Below, one piece after another: positions 11,936 through 36,066 of a stretch of 36,985 nucleotides of DNA. The notes beneath the pieces are model-generated. The model saw nothing but the letters and a program-made list of their open reading frames with translations. It did no database searches and was not told the origin of the DNA. The stretch's first letter is position 1. Each line of letters begins with the position of its first letter. The translations under genes and the position numbers were made by a program. Source of the DNA: Micromonospora phytophila (GTDB lineage: Bacteria > Actinomycetota > Actinomycetes > Mycobacteriales > Micromonosporaceae). The stretch lies in assembly GCF_023656545.1 (NCBI RefSeq), contig NZ_JAMOKF010000020.1:1-36985 (forward strand), read 5' to 3'.

Positions 11936-12260
11936 GTGTCGTATCAGCGAGCCGCTCCCGCTGTGCTGGGTGTACCTCCACGTGCTGCGCGAGCTCGCTC
12001 AGCACTGCGGGCACGCAGACATCCTGCGCGAGCAGCTGCTGAGCGAGTAGCGCGCGGGCGTCCGCGCATGCGGCCGACAGGGCGTTCACGTCCCATCCTG
12101 CTCTGCAGCCCGGGCATGAGGATCGTGGAGCGGGATGGGAGCAGACGGGCGCACTGAACGGCGGTCAACTGCACACAACGGCACCGAGCAGCCCTCAACG
12201 GCACCCGCGCCCACCTCCGGATCTGCGTATCCGCAGGTCCGGGTCGGCGCAGCATCCTGC
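11936..12260. other. non-coding stretch, nothing recognised
   Basis: Open frames on both strands lack recognisable domains and ribosome-binding sites. The stretch leads into the tRNA-like sequence at 12261, so it may contain the eroded edge of an inserted element. Confidence 0.4.
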
Positions 12261-12291
12261 TTCACACCGAAGAGGTCACTGGTTCGATCCC
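12261..12291 (+). other. tRNA-Val(CAC)-like 3' fragment, possible att scar
   Basis: TTCACAC (12261-12267) reads as a 7-nt anticodon loop with CAC. The anticodon 3' stem CGAAG, the variable region AGGTC, the T stem ACTGG and the T loop TTCGATC follow. The sequence then departs from a tRNA: the T stem cannot close and no acceptor stem follows. Anticodon-to-T-loop segments of tRNAs are the usual crossover core for actinomycete integrative elements and phages. It is not a functional tRNA. Confidence 0.5.
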
Positions 12292-13803: not shown

Positions 13804-13982
13804 GACCGAAAGCGTGCCCGGTAGCGATCTGGGCGGCAATAGGCAGTGGCCTCGGCAAGATCGCCTGGCACAAGGCGGGCACAAGTTACGCCGACATGGG
13901 CTGTCAACCGCTGTGAGGCAGCGGGAGAACTCGCCGAGGCCACGCGGCCGATCCGCCCGATTAGAGTTGATCAGAAGCACGC

Positions 13983-14015
13983 TGGAGGGGTTCAGGGTTC
14001 GAGTCCCCGCCTCCA
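13983..14015 (+). other. tRNA-like 3' minihelix (T arm and acceptor-like ends)
   Basis: TGGAGG (13983-13988) pairs with CCTCCA (14010-14015), enclosing a T-arm-like CAGGGTTCGAGTCCCCG. The TTCGAGT loop is typical of tRNA or tmRNA 3' ends, and TCCA could be the tail. No D arm or anticodon arm precedes it. It may be an att remnant or a tRNA-end duplicate. Low confidence. Confidence 0.35.
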
Positions 14016-14108: not shown

Positions 14109-14330
14109 ATGTCGCAAACCGTTACTGTGGAAGTGATCAAAGCTGTTCCTGCCGTGCTCTGGGTTGCCTTCGCCCCTTTGGTTTACTTTACCCTGCGCAG
14201 CGCGCTCATCCCGCAGCTTGGTCGCCTCAACAGCGTGAAGACGCCAATGCTTGAGTTGGGCTTCGCCGAGCAGTTGCTCGATGAGGCGGCGGCCAAGTCG
14301 CAGGTAGGAACGCCACCCTCTGCTGCTGTG
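14109..14330 (+). pseudogene. 5' fragment of a membrane-anchored protein
   Basis: ATG 14109 follows GGAGAACG and begins a good reading frame: a transmembrane segment (about residues 8-30, AVPAVLWVAFAPLVYFTLRS) and a juxtamembrane region LGRLNSVKTPMLELGFAEQL. After TPPSAAV (about 14325) the frame becomes Arg/Gly-rich noise and stops at 14384, inside the 3' end of the convergent MFS gene. It looks like the anchor of a larger cytosolic-domain protein whose 3' part was deleted when the neighbouring operon arrived. The lost domain cannot be identified with certainty. Confidence 0.6.
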
Positions 14331-14363
14331 CGCCGCCGAGGACCCACAGCCGGTACGGGCCGA

Positions 14364-15620
14364 TCAAGCCGTAGTGGTAACTGAGCGTATTCGGCCACGC
14401 GAGAGGAGGGCGACTATCAGCAGGCCGACGGCGACCACCAGGAAGGTCTGGCGAACACCGATGGCGCTGGCGAGTGCCCCGAAGACCACTGATCCGACCG
14501 GTAGCGTGCACATGATCGCCACCCGGGCTGCGGCGTTGACTCGGCCGAGGAGTTCCGGTGGGGTGAGCCGCTGCCGCATGGTGACGAGCGTGATGTTGAT
14601 GAGCGGTCCGCTGAGTCCGAAGCAGAGTTGCGAGCCGGCGAACATCGCGAGGCCTCCGTAAGCGGGCGCCACGAACAGCAGCATCGCGCCTGCGGCCATG
14701 AGGCAGAATGAAGCGAACACGACTCCGCCCTCGCCGATGTGTCGGGTGAGCCGAGGCGCCGCCGCCGCTGCGGCGAGCGCTGCGACGCCTTCGGCGGCGA
14801 GAACAGCTCCGAGCTGTTGTGGCGACATGTCGAGCAGTTTGATGGCCAGCAGCACCTGCAGAGCCATGGCGCCGGAGATGAACAGGTTGCTGGCGGACGC
14901 TGCGACGATCACCGCGGTGATGTTGGCGTTCGTGCGAATGAACCCGATGCCCTCCCGCACGGAGGCGAGCAGTGCGCGGTTGTTGCGCTTGACGGCCGGC
15001 CCGCCTGCTCGGGTGCGCCACAGCGGCGCCAGCAGCAGTACTCCCACACCGAAGCTCGCGGCGTCGATGAGAAGCGCAGTCGGCGCGGAGAGCGCGGCGA
15101 TGAGCAGGCCGCCGACCGCCGGGCCGAGCAGCTGCGCCACTGACCTGCTCAGTTCGAGCCGGCTGTTCGCGGTGGCGAGGGCGTCCTCGGGAACGGTCTG
15201 CGGTAGATAGGTTTGGTACGACACGTCGAAGAAGACGGCGCCGATACCCACCACGAACGCGACGACGAGCAGGACCCCGATGTTGAGGCTCCCGGTGGCA
15301 TGGGCCAACGGTATGAGGGAGATGACAACGAGCCGAACGAGATTGGCGGTCGTCATGATGCGAATGGGCCGACCCCGGTCCACGTACGCGCCGACGAACA
15401 GGCCGAGGAGGGCGACGGGCAACCACCCGACTGCCGAGAGCAGGCCCATCATGAAGCCCGACGCTTGCAGCTGTTGCACGGCGACCAGTGGCACGGCGAT
15501 GAGCGTCACCTGCGTGCCGAAAAGGGACACGCTCTCGGCGCCCCAGAGCAGCCAGAATCGCCGAGAGATGTGACGTCGTCCGGGGTCCGTGCCCGCCGGG
15601 CTGACCGCGGATTCAGTCAT
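14364..15620 (-). CDS. MFS exporter (MFS_3/EntS-like branch)
   Basis: A 418-residue 12-segment major facilitator. The N-terminus RRFWLLWGAESVSLFGTQVT and the first loop GAYVDRGRPIRI are typical of the EntS/macrolide-efflux branch, which exports siderophores, macrolides or other secondary metabolites. The start ATG 15620 overlaps the end of the oxygenase gene by 8 nt (ATGACTGA), a sign of translational coupling. This places it last in the operon MurA-like remnant, oxygenase, exporter. It likely secretes the product, or a precursor, of the oxygenase pathway; that is inference from linkage. Confidence 0.9.
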   Translation of the reverse strand: MTESAVSPAGTDPGRRHISRRFWLLWGAESVSLFGTQVTLIAVPLVAVQQLQASGFMMGLLSAVGWLPVALLGLFVGAYVDRGRPIRIMTTANLVRLVVISLIPLAHATGSLNIGVLLVVAFVVGIGAVFFDVSYQTYLPQTVPEDALATANSRLELSRSVAQLLGPAVGGLLIAALSAPTALLIDAASFGVGVLLLAPLWRTRAGGPAVKRNNRALLASVREGIGFIRTNANITAVIVAASASNLFISGAMALQVLLAIKLLDMSPQQLGAVLAAEGVAALAAAAAAPRLTRHIGEGGVVFASFCLMAAGAMLLFVAPAYGGLAMFAGSQLCFGLSGPLINITLVTMRQRLTPPELLGRVNAAARVAIMCTLPVGSVVFGALASAIGVRQTFLVVAVGLLIVALLSRGRIRSVTTTA

Positions 15621-16260
15621 CGGCGCCTCTCCAGTACGTAAGATTGAGCGAGCATCGTGGAGCAACGCTGGCCGCGGATTCCTCCACCGAGTGCCAGGAG
15701 TCCTCGGAGCGCACGAGGATGGCGCTTGCGCCGAGGACCGGCGCGAGTGCAGTGACGGTGTCAGCCACGTCCGGCGTGTGTTGGATGCGGAGCCGGCCAC
15801 CGTTTCCTTCGGTCCATTCGCCGCTGAGATAGATGACCTGCGTCAACACCTTCTCTGCCTTGTCGACGTGAGGGGATAGGAAGTCGCCGCCCCGGTACTC
15901 CCAACATGTCAACGTTGTGGTCGCATCGGTAAGGTTGACGCCGCTGAGCCGGGCCAGCAGCGATCGGTACTCAGTGCTGGCCAAGGCCGCCAGCAGCTTG
16001 GCCCAGCCGGGGGTAAGGCCGGCGCGCAGCTCGTGATCCGTCAGGTCAGCCGACCACAGGCTGTAGTCCTTGTCCGAGTTGCTGCGGGCGCTGGGCGTGA
16101 GCCGTTCGCTGGGAAAGTCGGCGGAAAGTTCGCTCGCGTACTCGGCCGGCAGTGCATCCGCGACGTACAGGTGTGGCCAGGGAGTGCGGGTGAAGCGTTC
16201 CGCAGCGAGCCGGGTGGTGAGCAGAGCCACGACTGACTGGGTGTCAACGCCGAGCGTCAA
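15613..16260 (-). CDS. 2-oxoglutarate/Fe(II)-dependent oxygenase
   Basis: A 215-residue double-stranded beta-helix oxygenase of the prolyl-4-hydroxylase-like type. The iron triad is H131 and D133 in SPHVDKAEKVL and H190 in SWHSVEE; R202 in PRCSLNLTYW is placed to bind 2-oxoglutarate. Such enzymes hydroxylate or desaturate amino acids, peptides or small molecules using O2 and 2-oxoglutarate in the cytosol. The TTG start at 16260 follows GGAG by 6 nt and overlaps the MurA-like remnant by 17 nt. The stop overlaps the exporter start. The tight overlaps show an operon evolved for co-expression. The substrate is unknown. Confidence 0.88.
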   Translation of the reverse strand: MTLGVDTQSVVALLTTRLAAERFTRTPWPHLYVADALPAEYASELSADFPSERLTPSARSNSDKDYSLWSADLTDHELRAGLTPGWAKLLAALASTEYRSLLARLSGVNLTDATTTLTCWEYRGGDFLSPHVDKAEKVLTQVIYLSGEWTEGNGGRLRIQHTPDVADTVTALAPVLGASAILVRSEDSWHSVEESAASVAPRCSLNLTYWRGADD

Positions 16261-16480
16261 TGTCCACTCCTATACCTTGAAGCTTGCCGATGAGGCGGCT
16301 GTATCCGCGGCGCAGGTGTTGTGCGCCGGTGATGGTGGTGACACCGGGCACACGTAGCGCGGCAAGCAGGTAGGCAGCCGCGCAGCGCAGATCGGTGGCC
16401 TCGAGGACTTGGCTGGTAGTCCTCAGGTGGGCCGGGGCGCCGGTCCAATGGTTGTACTTGTGAAGCGCCGCTCCAAGAGC
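16244..16480 (-). pseudogene. MurA-like enolpyruvyltransferase, C-terminal remnant
   Basis: The minus-strand frame ending at TGA 16244 reads LEATDLRCAAAYLLAALRVP, then TTITGAQHLRRGYSRLIGKL and QGIGVDIDARR. It aligns with the last helices of UDP-GlcNAc/UMP enolpyruvyltransferases (ATDLRA..LVLAG and HIDRGYERI..KLRALGA in MurA). The catalytic Cys loop and N-terminal domain are absent. Homology fades near 16480, where the divergent Nudix gene starts. Besides cell-wall MurA, this fold includes NikO-type enzymes that make enolpyruvyl-UMP for nikkomycin/polyoxin antibiotics. Being first in an operon with an oxygenase and an exporter favours a biosynthetic rather than housekeeping origin. The remnant is probably inactive. 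Confidence 0.7.
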
Positions 16481-16485
16481 TCCAG

Positions 16486-17721
16486 GTGCGTACAGTGCCT
16501 CACCAGCCGGGCCCGTGGCCGCTGCGGGCGCTGGCCGAGTTGGAAAGCAGGCGGTACTCGATATCAGACAACCGCGTAAGGAAGGTCTTCGACGCAGCCG
16601 GCTGGGAAGGAACGCTGCGGAGGCTGTACCCCGAAACCCCGTTGGTGTCGCTGGGCGGCTTCACCTTCCCGATCTGGGCCGAGATCGCGGCACCCGAGTT
16701 CAGAGGCGACCTCGACTCAGCGATTGGAAACATCACCGATCACGTCCGGCCTGACAGGCGTCGGTACGACGCGGAAGGTCGTGGTTTCGACCACCGCGGC
16801 AGGGCAGAGTTCCGACGCACCTACTGGCGGCGCGACGAAGTTCGGCGGTTCAACGCGGAGACGTTCGCGCTCGACAAGATCGAGCGCCACCGGCCCGGCA
16901 GGTTCCGCATTCATGCTCGCTACGGCACCTACTTTCAGTCGGTGGCGACCTCGGAAATGCTTGAACGCGAGTTCATCAACGTCGTGAGTCGCCGGCCGAA
17001 TGCCGTGTGGTCGTTGAGCGACTTCCCGCGACGTGCCTGGCTGCGAGAACGGGCTGGCGGAAGCGAGCTCTTCAACGGCGCCCACCGGGCGGCCGCCTTG
17101 TCGGTGGCGGCAGTAATGATCGTGAAGGAGAAGCAGGGGTACAGCGCGCTGTTGAGCCGCAGATCCGGGCACGTCAAGACGCATCCGGGCTTCCAGCATG
17201 TCTTTCCCTCCGGAATCCTCGCGCCGACCAGCTCCCGGTACGGCAGTGAGCGCGCGGAGTACTCGGTGAAACGAGCCTTCCTTCGCGAGTTCGCCGAGGA
17301 GTTGTTCGGGTACGACGACCTGGCCTACGACAGCCGGGACCTCCGCGATCCGCTCGGCGGCATCTGGCCGATCCAGCACCTGCTCAACGCCACCCAGCCC
17401 GGACCCATGGGGGAGCCACCGGCGGTCGAGATCAGATATACCGGCATCTCGGTGCCGCTACTCACCCTCCGCCCCGAGGTGTACGTGCTCGTGCTGGTCC
17501 GTCAGCCAGGCTGGTTCGATGAGCTGGTGAGCGGAGCGGAGCTCAGGTGCCGACGGCACGGATTCAACCTGAACTGGGAGTTTGAGGACGACCGAGACGA
17601 CATCGACGGCAAGAGACTGGACTCGATCCGCGTTGAACTCGACGATCAGTTCGAGCTCACCGGCAGGCAGCGGCTCACTCCGCTCAACACCGTTCCTCAC
17701 GCCCGTGAGCCGCTTCGTTGA
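16486..17721 (+). CDS. Nudix-domain protein with a long N-terminal extension
   Basis: A 411-residue protein. A Nudix box is visible at residues 268-276 (REFAEELFG) with the upstream Gly-containing strand HVFPSGIL, matching GX5EX7REUXEEXGU apart from a longer insert. Nudix enzymes hydrolyse nucleoside diphosphates linked to other groups; some are regulators without catalysis. The first 200 residues contain conserved-looking blocks (RGRAEFRRTYWRRDEVRRFN, HARYGTYFQSVATSEMLERE) I cannot assign. The start is uncertain: GTG 16486 or 16495, neither with a good ribosome-binding site. The gene begins exactly where the MurA-like remnant ends, so a few N-terminal codons may have been replaced at the junction. 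Confidence 0.7.
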   Translation: MRTVPHQPGPWPLRALAELESRRYSISDNRVRKVFDAAGWEGTLRRLYPETPLVSLGGFTFPIWAEIAAPEFRGDLDSAIGNITDHVRPDRRRYDAEGRGFDHRGRAEFRRTYWRRDEVRRFNAETFALDKIERHRPGRFRIHARYGTYFQSVATSEMLEREFINVVSRRPNAVWSLSDFPRRAWLRERAGGSELFNGAHRAAALSVAAVMIVKEKQGYSALLSRRSGHVKTHPGFQHVFPSGILAPTSSRYGSERAEYSVKRAFLREFAEELFGYDDLAYDSRDLRDPLGGIWPIQHLLNATQPGPMGEPPAVEIRYTGISVPLLTLRPEVYVLVLVRQPGWFDELVSGAELRCRRHGFNLNWEFEDDRDDIDGKRLDSIRVELDDQFELTGRQRLTPLNTVPHAREPLR

Positions 17722-18409: not shown

Positions 18410-18875
18410 ACGTCCCACGCCCCTCAGCGCCCCGGGAACGTCGAACGAGCCCAGTGGGCACGGAAGCGGCGGACGTCTCGCTTACAAGCTCTGTGCGCTG
18501 CGTCCGCGCCCGTCCGGGAACGGCTGCACGCTCGGAGCTTCGTCCATGCCCACGCTCGTCAGTGTGCTGTCGTCCGGCGCGGTTGCTGTCAGCGTTGCTG
18601 TCGACAGCCATCTCACAGACGACCCAGGCTGACCCTTGCCGGGGGATGCGGTCTCAAGCTGTCGGCTGGTGCCGGCTGGTGACAAGCAGCACCGACGAGC
18701 AGGTGCGGCCGTCGTCGCTGTAACGGAGTCTGGCCCGGCGTCGCCATAAGGGGGACCGGCGTTGCCGAGCCGGTCAGGCCGGGGTGGGCACGTCCCCCCA
18801 AGAGTCGCCACAACCCGCCCCGGCCACCCCGCGACATCCCGGCTTGCTACCCCAGTACTGCCGCGTGGGGGCGCA
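18410..18875. other. non-coding stretch, nothing recognised
   Basis: Several overlapping open frames on both strands are Ser/Pro/Arg-rich and unlike real proteins. I see no domain, hairpin or repeat of note until the tRNA-like sequence at 18876. Confidence 0.4.
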
Positions 18876-18927
18876 CTGCAAATCCGTCGCGAAAGCTTCA
18901 GAGGTTCGAATCCTCTACCCGCCACCA
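18876..18927 (+). other. 3' half of a tRNA-Tyr-like gene, probable att site
   Basis: From 18876 the sequence reads as anticodon loop CTGCAAA, 3' anticodon stem TCCGT, a long variable arm CGCGAAAGCTTC, T arm AGAGG-TTCGAAT-CCTCT, acceptor ACCCGCC, discriminator A and encoded CCA (18925-18927). The long variable arm and layout fit tRNA-Tyr, but the anticodon position reads GCA instead of GTA, and the upstream 40 nt do not form the 5' half. A 3' tRNA half with CCA is the standard attachment-site product of integrative elements; SLP1 in Streptomyces integrates at tRNA-Tyr. Not a functional tRNA. Confidence 0.65.
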
Positions 18928-34235: not shown

Positions 34236-36066
34236 TGACGATCGTGGCCGACCGGGGACGGCCGGTGGCGCTGAAGTCGGGCCAGTTCGAGCTCACGCGA
34301 GGGTTCGCGGGCGTGCCCGAGTCACCGGGGTGCTGGATGTTCACGAACAGCGACCGGCCGTCAGGTGTGGAGGTGATTCCGGTGACCTCGCAGCGCGGCG
34401 GCCCGACCAGGAACCGCCGAATGTCGCCCGTGTCGGGGTCGGCCGCCAGCATCTGGTTGTTCTGGGGGGCACCGTTGACCATCGGCTGGGTGCCGTCGGT
34501 CTGGATCCACAGTCGCCCAGCGGCGTCGAACCAGAGGCCGTCGGGCGAGCCGAACGCCTGATCCGCGGGAACGGTGGCACCGCTGGCCTGATCCCCGGCG
34601 AGCAGGAAGACGTCCCAGGCGAACTTCTCCGCGCTGGGGTCGCCACCCTCGTCGATCTTCATGATGTGCCCGAAGCGGTTGTTCAGCCGTGGGTTGGCCG
34701 CATTCACCGACTCGGTTCGGGCGGTGTTGTTCGTACAGGTGAAGAAGACCGCGCCGGTTCCGGGCTGCACCGTGCACCACTCCGGGCGGTCCATCGGGGT
34801 CGCTCCCACCGCGTCGGCGGCCAGGCGCGTGCGGATCAGCACCTCGGCCTGATCGGCGAACCCGTCGGCCGCTGTCAGGCCCGGCTCGCCGTGCACCAGC
34901 GGCAGCCACCTTCCAGTGCCGTCCTCCTCGAACCGGGCGACGTACAGGGTGCCATCGTCGAGGGGACTGCGTCCGTGCTTGCGTGCCTTGTTGATCGGCT
35001 CCGCGCCCACGAACTTGTAGAAGTAGTCGAACTGTGTGTCGTCGCCCATGTAGACGACGGCCTCGCCGCGGCTGCCGCGCACGACGACGGCGTTCTCATG
35101 CTCCATGCGCCCCAGCGCGGTCCGCTTCTTCGGCGCCGACGAAGGGTCGAAGGGGTCGATCTCCACCACCCAGCCGAACCGGTTGTACTCGTTCGGCTCC
35201 GCCCTCATGTCGAATCGGGCGTCCGTGGTGTGCCACGGGTACGGATTCTCTGATCCAATGCCGTACCGGTCCTCGACCGAGCCGGCCGGCGGCGGCTCTT
35301 CGCCGAAGTAGAAGTACTTGTTGATCGTCTCTTCGCAGGTCAGGTACGTGTCCCAGGGCGTTGGTCCGCTGGCGCAGTTGTTCAGGGTGCCCAGCACCCG
35401 GACGCCGTCGGGGTCCGCGCTGGTGCGCAGCAGCGGGTGCCCGGCGGCGGGACCGGTGATCTCGGCAGGCGTGGTCATGGTCACCCGGCGGGCGAACCTC
35501 GACTCGACGAGGTGCCACTGGCCGTCGCGGTCCTGCTCGATTTCGATGACCGACACGCCGTGCGCGGCGAGCGACTTGGCGGTCTTCTCCGGCGACCAGT
35601 TGGCCCGGCCGTCGGGGTGCAGCAATTGCTCAGTCGTGCACTCGTGGTTCACGCAGAGCAGACCGGAGCGTTTGCCCTTGAGCGGAAAGAACCACATGCC
35701 GTCGTGTTGGTCACCCGCCTGCTGGGCTTGCTCTTCTGCGCTGTTGCTGGCGTCCTTGGTGAACGCGGGCCCGGACGGCACGATCGGGTGTCCCCAGGGG
35801 AACAGCAGCTGGTACTGATATCCGGGCGGCAGCACGACCTGGTCGGCGACACTCGGCGGGATCGCTGGGAACCCGAGCAGCCGCCGCATGCCGGGACCGC
35901 GGGTCGTGGCTCCCGCCTCGGCGGCAGCCGCTGGCTCGGGCCGGGCCACGGTGCCGAAGAACGATGCGGCGGCGGTGGCGAGCCCGCCGGCCAGCGCCGT
36001 CCTGCGGGACAGGCGGTGCTGGGCTAGCTCAGAGATCGAACGTGACGAGGTCCCGTCGGGACGCAT
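34201..36066 (-). CDS. phoX: PhoX-family alkaline phosphatase (DUF839), Tat-exported
   Basis: A 621-residue protein. The Tat signal is SRRTALAGGLATAAASFFGT (twin Arg at residues 21-22). The PhoX fold follows with VNHECTTEQLLHPDG, TYLTCEETINKYFYFGEEPP (Cys-Glu-Glu motif), GRMEHENAVV (EHEN), VYMGDDTQFDYFYKFVG (DD..F) and SPDGLWFDAAGRLWIQTDG; these bind the Fe/Ca cluster. PhoX releases phosphate from organic esters outside the cell. ATG 36066 follows GGAGG by 7 nt; the frame extends to 36360 but this region is a repeat-bearing promoter. PhoX genes are usually under PhoR/PhoP control. A 19-bp tandem repeat lies 62 bp upstream. Confidence 0.92.
   Translation of the reverse strand: MRPDGTSSRSISELAQHRLSRRTALAGGLATAAASFFGTVARPEPAAAAEAGATTRGPGMRRLLGFPAIPPSVADQVVLPPGYQYQLLFPWGHPIVPSGPAFTKDASNSAEEQAQQAGDQHDGMWFFPLKGKRSGLLCVNHECTTEQLLHPDGRANWSPEKTAKSLAAHGVSVIEIEQDRDGQWHLVESRFARRVTMTTPAEITGPAAGHPLLRTSADPDGVRVLGTLNNCASGPTPWDTYLTCEETINKYFYFGEEPPPAGSVEDRYGIGSENPYPWHTTDARFDMRAEPNEYNRFGWVVEIDPFDPSSAPKKRTALGRMEHENAVVVRGSRGEAVVYMGDDTQFDYFYKFVGAEPINKARKHGRSPLDDGTLYVARFEEDGTGRWLPLVHGEPGLTAADGFADQAEVLIRTRLAADAVGATPMDRPEWCTVQPGTGAVFFTCTNNTARTESVNAANPRLNNRFGHIMKIDEGGDPSAEKFAWDVFLLAGDQASGATVPADQAFGSPDGLWFDAAGRLWIQTDGTQPMVNGAPQNNQMLAADPDTGDIRRFLVGPPRCEVTGITSTPDGRSLFVNIQHPGDSGTPANPRVSSNWPDFSATGRPRSATIVITREDGGVVGA

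Follow-up and report, generated by a model that had tools for sequence, protein, structure and literature searches.

Does the tightly packed group of three minus-strand frames at 14364-16440 in a contig of Micromonospora phytophila (NZ_JAMOKF010000020.1, positions 1 to 36,985, this whole stretch of 36,985 nucleotides being called the window here) represent the surviving edge of a small-molecule gene cluster and, if so, of which kind? The overlapping frames comprise the C-terminal end of an enolpyruvyltransferase (EPT), an Fe(II)/2-oxoglutarate (2OG) oxygenase and an exporter of the major facilitator superfamily (MFS). We consider it fairly likely that the region is the 3' end of an operon that the genome gained by horizontal transfer and that once belonged to a nucleoside antibiotic cluster of the octosyl-acid type (the polyoxin, nikkomycin or malayamycin kind). 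The elements on which the argument turns are the following.

16244..16440 (end approximate), minus strand: C-terminal fragment of an EPT (MurA/NikO superfamily) without its 5' part, from homology and tree
15613..16260, minus strand: intact Fe(II)/2-oxoglutarate oxygenase of 215 aa, PolD/PasI-like, from PF13640 and PDB sequence and fold matches
14364..15620, minus strand: MFS exporter of 418 aa, nearest models TIGR00900 and MFS_1/MFS_3, from profile matches
16408..16450, no strand: junction between the end of EPT homology and the start of DNA common to a same-genus gene, both genes lacking their 5' ends, from the limits of homology

The EPT stop (16244-16246) and the TTG start of the oxygenase (16258-16260) give an overlap of 17 nt, the oxygenase stop (15613-15615) and the MFS ATG (15618-15620) one of 8 nt, and an AGGAG, read by eye, lies directly ahead of the oxygenase TTG. 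This three-frame geometry, with both overlaps, had been claimed in a first-pass annotation and is borne out by the start and stop positions and by homology in each frame; since every frame shows its own homology, the layout is not a product of chance.

The oxygenase carries most of the argument. It matches PF13640 at 5.1e-9, and H131, D133, H190 and R202, invariant in alignments of 4 and of 12 rows, constitute a complete HxD...H iron site with the distal arginine. Compared with all PDB sequences it has only two distinct matches at E ≤ 1, namely 9blq (3.4e-16), whose title names Streptomyces cacaoi PolD with iron and succinate, and 9ei6 (4.1e-14), titled PasI, a protein of Photorhabdus asymbiotica also solved with 5-amino-6-hydroxy-octanosyl acid 2-phosphate. 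The fold gives the same picture: the predicted model (pLDDT 80.3, pTM 0.82) has 9blq as its top Foldseek match, with template modelling (TM) scores of 0.81/0.82, followed by PasI near 0.80, and prolyl hydroxylases and other oxygenases trail in the list at a TMq of about 0.6. The nearest solved relatives thus belong to octosyl-acid pathways; the window protein shares the HxD...H/Arg set with PolD, from which it differs in having only about 25% identity, and the identity to PasI (9EI6/9EI7), compared as a protein alone, is about 21%. The octosyl-acid nucleoside 2OG oxygenases comprise PolD, PolK, NikI, NikM, MalI, MalM and PasI. PMC5365060 puts PolD and PolK, as putative oxygenases, downstream of octosyl acid in the polyoxin pathway, and PMC8724604 gives MalM and MalI as the corresponding enzymes of malayamycin. 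The window oxygenase may likewise act on an octosyl-acid-type nucleotide. A defence role was considered for it and dropped, PADLOC having given just a generic 2OG model.

Where relatives of this oxygenase sit is the second line of evidence, and several of them adjoin an EPT gene, in clusters of the nikkomycin, the malayamycin-like or a similar kind. The plasmid search yielded 6 records, and neighbourhoods were examined in two Mesorhizobium plasmids (with an EPT) and two Nostoc plasmids (without). The Mesorhizobium plasmids, M. huakuii 583 p_3 (L014) and M. loti 582 p_2 (L027), both from root-nodule bacteria, are the best matches (38% identity). Around the relative they carry genes for TruD, a radical SAM enzyme, a methyltransferase, an EPT, a phosphatase, an aminotransferase and a carbamoyltransferase as well as a second 2OG piece, a set that corresponds to the inventory given for malayamycin in PMC8724604. 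They resemble the window in holding the closest plasmid relative, with one gene between oxygenase and EPT, and differ from it in the presence of TruD, radical SAM and carbamoyltransferase and in having no MFS annotated in the stretch seen. The EPT frame and one oxygenase frame look interrupted in these two plasmids.

Among Streptomyces-like genomes, the window oxygenase (E ≤ 1e-12) has eight matches in 5 of 323, the first few candidates per genome being scored in this and the other genome searches (61, 354, 394, 5 and 323 genomes; the 5-genome family sample is poorly centred and little informative). Three cluster genomes supply six of the eight, which are also the six best. All three clusters hold EPT, radical SAM and phosphatase genes, and an aminotransferase was seen in two of them. 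The EPT part of one (L049) is nearly identical to the NikO of PDB 4fqd, and L050 is nearly identical to L049. Two oxygenases of a nikkomycin cluster match just 9blq and 9ei6 in the PDB, one being plainly PolD-like (2.7e-61) and the other closer to PasI (2.4e-22). A tree of 19 oxygenases was built without the second oxygenase piece of Mesorhizobium, the copy of the first nikkomycin oxygenase in L050, the oxygenase of L120, two rows from Nostoc plasmids and some further Nostoc rows; in it a split (100/99) sets the window protein together with the second oxygenase of the nikkomycin cluster, its exact place on that side being unsettled. The nikkomycin cluster (L049/L050) is like the window in placing an EPT and PolD-family oxygenases side by side, together with an MFS domain, and its EPT C-terminus is 57% identical to the window fragment over 49 residues; it is unlike the window in possessing radical SAM and phosphatase genes, and in that its MFS, a P-loop kinase-like part (below cut-off) and NikO are read as one frame of 1075 aa. 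This frame (L049:3536-6763, L050:13155-16382) is a possible exporter-kinase-EPT fusion with MFS upstream of NikO. In comparison with polyoxin PolD, the window gene also differs in its setting: its neighbours are a truncated EPT and an exporter, and the nearby frames scanned contain no radical SAM, phosphatase or aminotransferase.

The EPT fragment matches the NCBIfam models PRK09369 (E 1e-12) and TIGR01072 (E 3.5e-12) and covers positions 351-417 of the 417 of Pfam PF00275, so that about 65-67 residues, some 15% of the protein, are retained. Its column identity is highest, 32/67, to L077 and L080 (a Streptomyces-like paralogue), followed by 29/64 to NikO, 25/65 to the Mesorhizobium EPT, 23/66 to the L048 EPT, 22/64 to the L066 MurA and 19/65 to the NikO protein of strain K84, and is 20/64 and 17/64 to the two MurA-type enzymes of the host. 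A tree of 24 EPT rows, which leaves out 11 AroA-type sequences (L001, L052-L061), the duplicates L076, L078 and L079 and the short L081, contains a split (97/97) with the fragment, five NikO-type rows and L077/L080 on one side and 16 other MurA-type rows, among them both host enzymes, on the other. The PDB scores of the fragment are 42.0 bits for a MurA and 41.8 for NikO. Taken together, identities, tree split and PDB scores indicate that it is probably a non-housekeeping EPT paralogue, its 67 residues leaving NikO and the other subtype undivided. The first-pass annotation, which called it MurA-like, had pointed to NikO-type paralogues as starting nucleoside-antibiotic pathways; the fragment is indeed not of the host murA type, but the NikO and MurA scores tie and the tree joins it to another EPT type. 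A full-length copy elsewhere was also sought: no other EPT of this type was found in the assembly (87.93% complete), its other PF00275 matches being three full-length genes.

A number of observations weigh against an octosyl-acid origin. The PDB tie just mentioned is one, and the nearest neighbours of the fragment in the tree are EPTs beside dCTP-deaminase-like genes. The place of the oxygenase in its own tree is unsettled among cluster rows and those from Nostoc, Bosea and Amorphoplanes, with a long branch, and its identity to cluster oxygenases is just 25-38%. The L049 and L050 clusters count as one event because they are near-identical. Two of the five Streptomyces-like genomes with relatives (G990 and G822) show another setting without an EPT match: the G990 relative, which resembles the PolD-like nikkomycin-cluster oxygenase (39%), lies near a frame that by eye is polyketide synthase-like, and the neighbourhood in G822 is of the same kind, its oxygenase frame not being among the genes picked there. 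All 16 relatives from the genome_contigs collection (mostly Nostoc, with Bosea and Amorphoplanes) lack an EPT or radical SAM match in their stretches, some of which span only 4-9 kb, as do the two Nostoc plasmids. These 16 came from 39 pattern matches obtained with the 4-row alignment, the earlier peptide patterns having given 52 pattern matches and no relative. A class sample of 394 genomes has a single match outside the own genome (E ≤ 1e-8), at 27% in G750, with no EPT in its stretch of 3.4 kb. No real similarity was found between the window MFS and the MFS part of the nikkomycin protein. The hypergeometric value for the link between oxygenase and clusters, 1.8e-6, takes the 323 genomes as falling within the 392 searched for radical SAM genes and overstates the link, since two of the three clusters are near-identical and the cut-off used was 1e-12, whereas with 1e-8 the class sample also gives G750, which has no EPT nearby.

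The annotation's reading of the locus as the edge of a small-molecule cluster accordingly stands in part: the PolD/PasI-like oxygenase and its relatives beside EPTs in nucleoside clusters speak for it, but no intact operon does. An intact EPT-2OG-MFS operon was found neither in genome_contigs, the four plasmid neighbourhoods examined, viral contigs or phages (the last two having given no match) nor in the samples of 61, 354, 394, 5 and 323 genomes, so that the proposed look for such operons in related genomes came back empty. Neither an intact operon of cell-wall character nor a fragment closest to housekeeping murA with random neighbours was obtained.

The alternative that survives best takes the fragment from the other, dCTP-deaminase-linked EPT branch, the donor then being a nucleotide pathway that lacked the octosyl-acid radical step and had recruited a PolD-like oxygenase. 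The column identity of 32/67 and the tree, which joins the fragment to L077/L080 at 85/80, favour it, and neighbourhoods of this branch carry two dCTP-deaminase-like genes, a metallophosphatase and a glycosyltransferase. In fuller detail, L082:7368-13963 (in G750) and L083:7387-14009 (in G936) contain an HTH regulator, an ATPase, the EPT paralogue, a calcineurin-like phosphoesterase, two dCTP-deaminase-like genes and a glycosyltransferase, and the locus common to both looks like an uncharacterised nucleotide pathway. These loci resemble the window in the EPT, which is nearest to the fragment in the tree, and differ from it in that no oxygenase relative was seen within 20 kb and no MFS matches the window exporter; moreover, a constrained clade of the fragment with NikO-type rows is not rejected (p-AU 0.193), only 67 residues being compared. 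We regard this alternative as rather improbable, and would equally give only a modest chance to its fuller form, a donor with an undescribed nucleoside pathway that combined a non-NikO (dCTP-deaminase-linked) EPT, a PolD-like oxygenase and a dedicated MFS pump. If true, the product would be unlike polyoxin, nikkomycin and malayamycin, and the orphan oxygenase would be the first handle on its chemistry.

Somewhat less probable again is that the substrate of the oxygenase has nothing to do with nucleosides and that its position beside the EPT fragment is incidental. The relatives with no EPT beside them (in Nostoc, Bosea, Amorphoplanes and some of the Streptomyces-like genomes), the low identities and the unsettled oxygenase tree would fit this, but the 17-nt overlap with the EPT frame, the restriction of PDB sequence matches to PolD and PasI and the fact that, among Streptomyces-like genomes, the relatives with the best scores are linked to EPT clusters all speak against it.

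How the operon was cut can be read from the other side of the junction, where a divergent gene begins:

16486..17721, plus strand: weakly NUDIX-like neighbour gene without its N-terminal 100-125 residues, from comparison with two same-genus homologues

The annotation had set the cut at about 16480; it lies near 16440. The EPT frame remains open to 16660, and EPT homology stops between about 16408 (phmmer) and 16438 (Pfam). Homology to the neighbour gene in two same-genus genomes begins in the DNA at 16435 and 16441, from where the sequence is 92-97% identical rightward, which means that the EPT frame beyond the junction is the antisense of the plus-strand neighbour. The homologues carry the 100-125 extra N-terminal residues, with a stretch that by eye is membrane-like, and these are missing in the window. 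Since both divergent genes lack their 5' parts at the same point, one junction near 16440 cost both. The likeness of the neighbour to NUDIX is weak (15.9 bits, below the Pfam cut-off of 21.1), and a fuller same-genus copy gave no Pfam family at 0.01.

Such a double loss at one point could also come from a chimera of the assembly, the operon being intact in the organism, and an error of this kind is conceivable because the assembly consists of 628 contigs and is 87.93% complete. No other EPT piece was found in it, and of the missing 5' region of the neighbour only repeats up to 84 bp occur elsewhere, although the missing 12% could hide both; we think a chimera slightly less probable still than an incidental oxygenase. 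That the fragment is a broken duplicate of the housekeeping murA is very improbable: MurA models are its sole NCBIfam matches (the presence of a NikO model in NCBIfam not being established) and a MurA ties in the PDB, but identities of 20/64 and 17/64 to the host enzymes, their place across the 97/97 split and the PolD-like neighbour speak against it.

The exporter was correctly placed by the annotation at 14364-15620, where the frame matches MFS_1 at 6.9e-35. Its description as EntS-like is acceptable only broadly, as an MFS protein, for the EntS model gives 69.8 bits against a cut-off of 324; the best NCBIfam model, TIGR00900, also stays below cut-off (200.3 bits against 319.6). A plasmid search with the exporter returned 302 records, all below 60% identity, and as a lead to the donor it was dropped as too widespread. 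Another EPT with an exporter is found in Rhizobium rhizogenes K84 pAtK84c (L026:10584-17084), where a multidrug efflux pump is followed by an annotated NikO protein, a hypothetical gene, asnB and a Cof-type hydrolase. A plus-strand frame at 14109-14384, with a start that by eye is membrane-protein-like, ends close to the 3' end of the window exporter; it has no Pfam or plasmid match.

Returning to the octosyl-acid-type operon that we favour, in the donor the EPT would put enolpyruvate on a nucleotide, radical SAM, kinase, phosphatase and aminotransferase enzymes would build the high-carbon sugar, the oxygenase would oxidise a late intermediate of the octosyl-acid type, and export of the product would fall to the MFS pump. 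Acquisition by horizontal transfer is suggested because the oxygenase is rare in the family and the operon DNA is unmatched: among 354 family genomes the oxygenase (E ≤ 1e-8) occurs in the own genome and one other (G102, 30%) alone, the G102 gene having the same coordinates as that in the Amorphoplanes nipponensis contig L029. A 12-kb DNA search against 37 genomes, the own among them, with 8 candidates scored in each, shows, among the matches listed, none in 14364-16434, the flanks matching many genomes. Six same-genus oxygenase matches at 21-23 bits were discarded as short stretches inside much longer frames.

No functional octosyl-acid cluster was found in this genome, the EPT being cut and no PolH/NikJ-like radical SAM enzyme (E ≤ 1e-20) being found in it or in 353 other family genomes. 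Because of these two facts the operon has probably lost the ability to yield a product of this kind, and the pathway is probably dead here. No phosphatase or aminotransferase was seen among the window frames scanned, no genome-wide search having been made for these or a kinase. We conclude that the operon end is an acquired, decaying piece in which oxygenase and exporter are left as orphans, conceivably kept for self-protection or another oxidation.

Polyoxin and nikkomycin are antifungal nucleosides, and octosyl-acid nucleosides are antifungal leads. Their signature genes are rare in the samples searched: with the radical SAM gene of the Mesorhizobium cluster as query, PolH/NikJ-like matches (E ≤ 1e-20) occur in 4/392 Streptomyces-like genomes, three at 47% with a cluster and one at 30% without, and in 0/354 host-family genomes. 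The combination of a truncated EPT, a pump and a PolD-like oxygenase that is intact and very divergent suggests that the family of the host has been reached by such a pathway, and points to a donor cluster not encountered in these samples; the orphan oxygenase is a new enzyme for tests of substrate range. Taking PolD/PasI-like oxygenases as queries instead of generic oxygenase domains may reveal more cases. In our literature search we recognised no account of such an operon remnant, and none on PasI.

The surroundings add no nucleoside pathway genes: the other window frames scanned with Pfam gave SpoIIE/GAF, MFS, LVIVD, DUF421, glycosyl hydrolase 15 or nothing. One element outside the operon provides context:

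18866..18927, plus strand: 3' 62 nt of a tRNA-Tyr with its downstream flank, a possible attachment-site remnant of an integrated island

This piece suggests insertions in the region and is likely an integration-site remnant; no whole tRNA and no Rfam family were found in the window. Short repeats at 11952-12291, 13854-14007 and 18472-18717 have copies in several same-genus genomes, and two of them end in T-arm-like motifs. Those at 12281 and 13996 were considered as tRNA pieces and left unconfirmed, three loci examined for the repeats having given no tRNA. A fourth T-arm-like motif lies at 34522.

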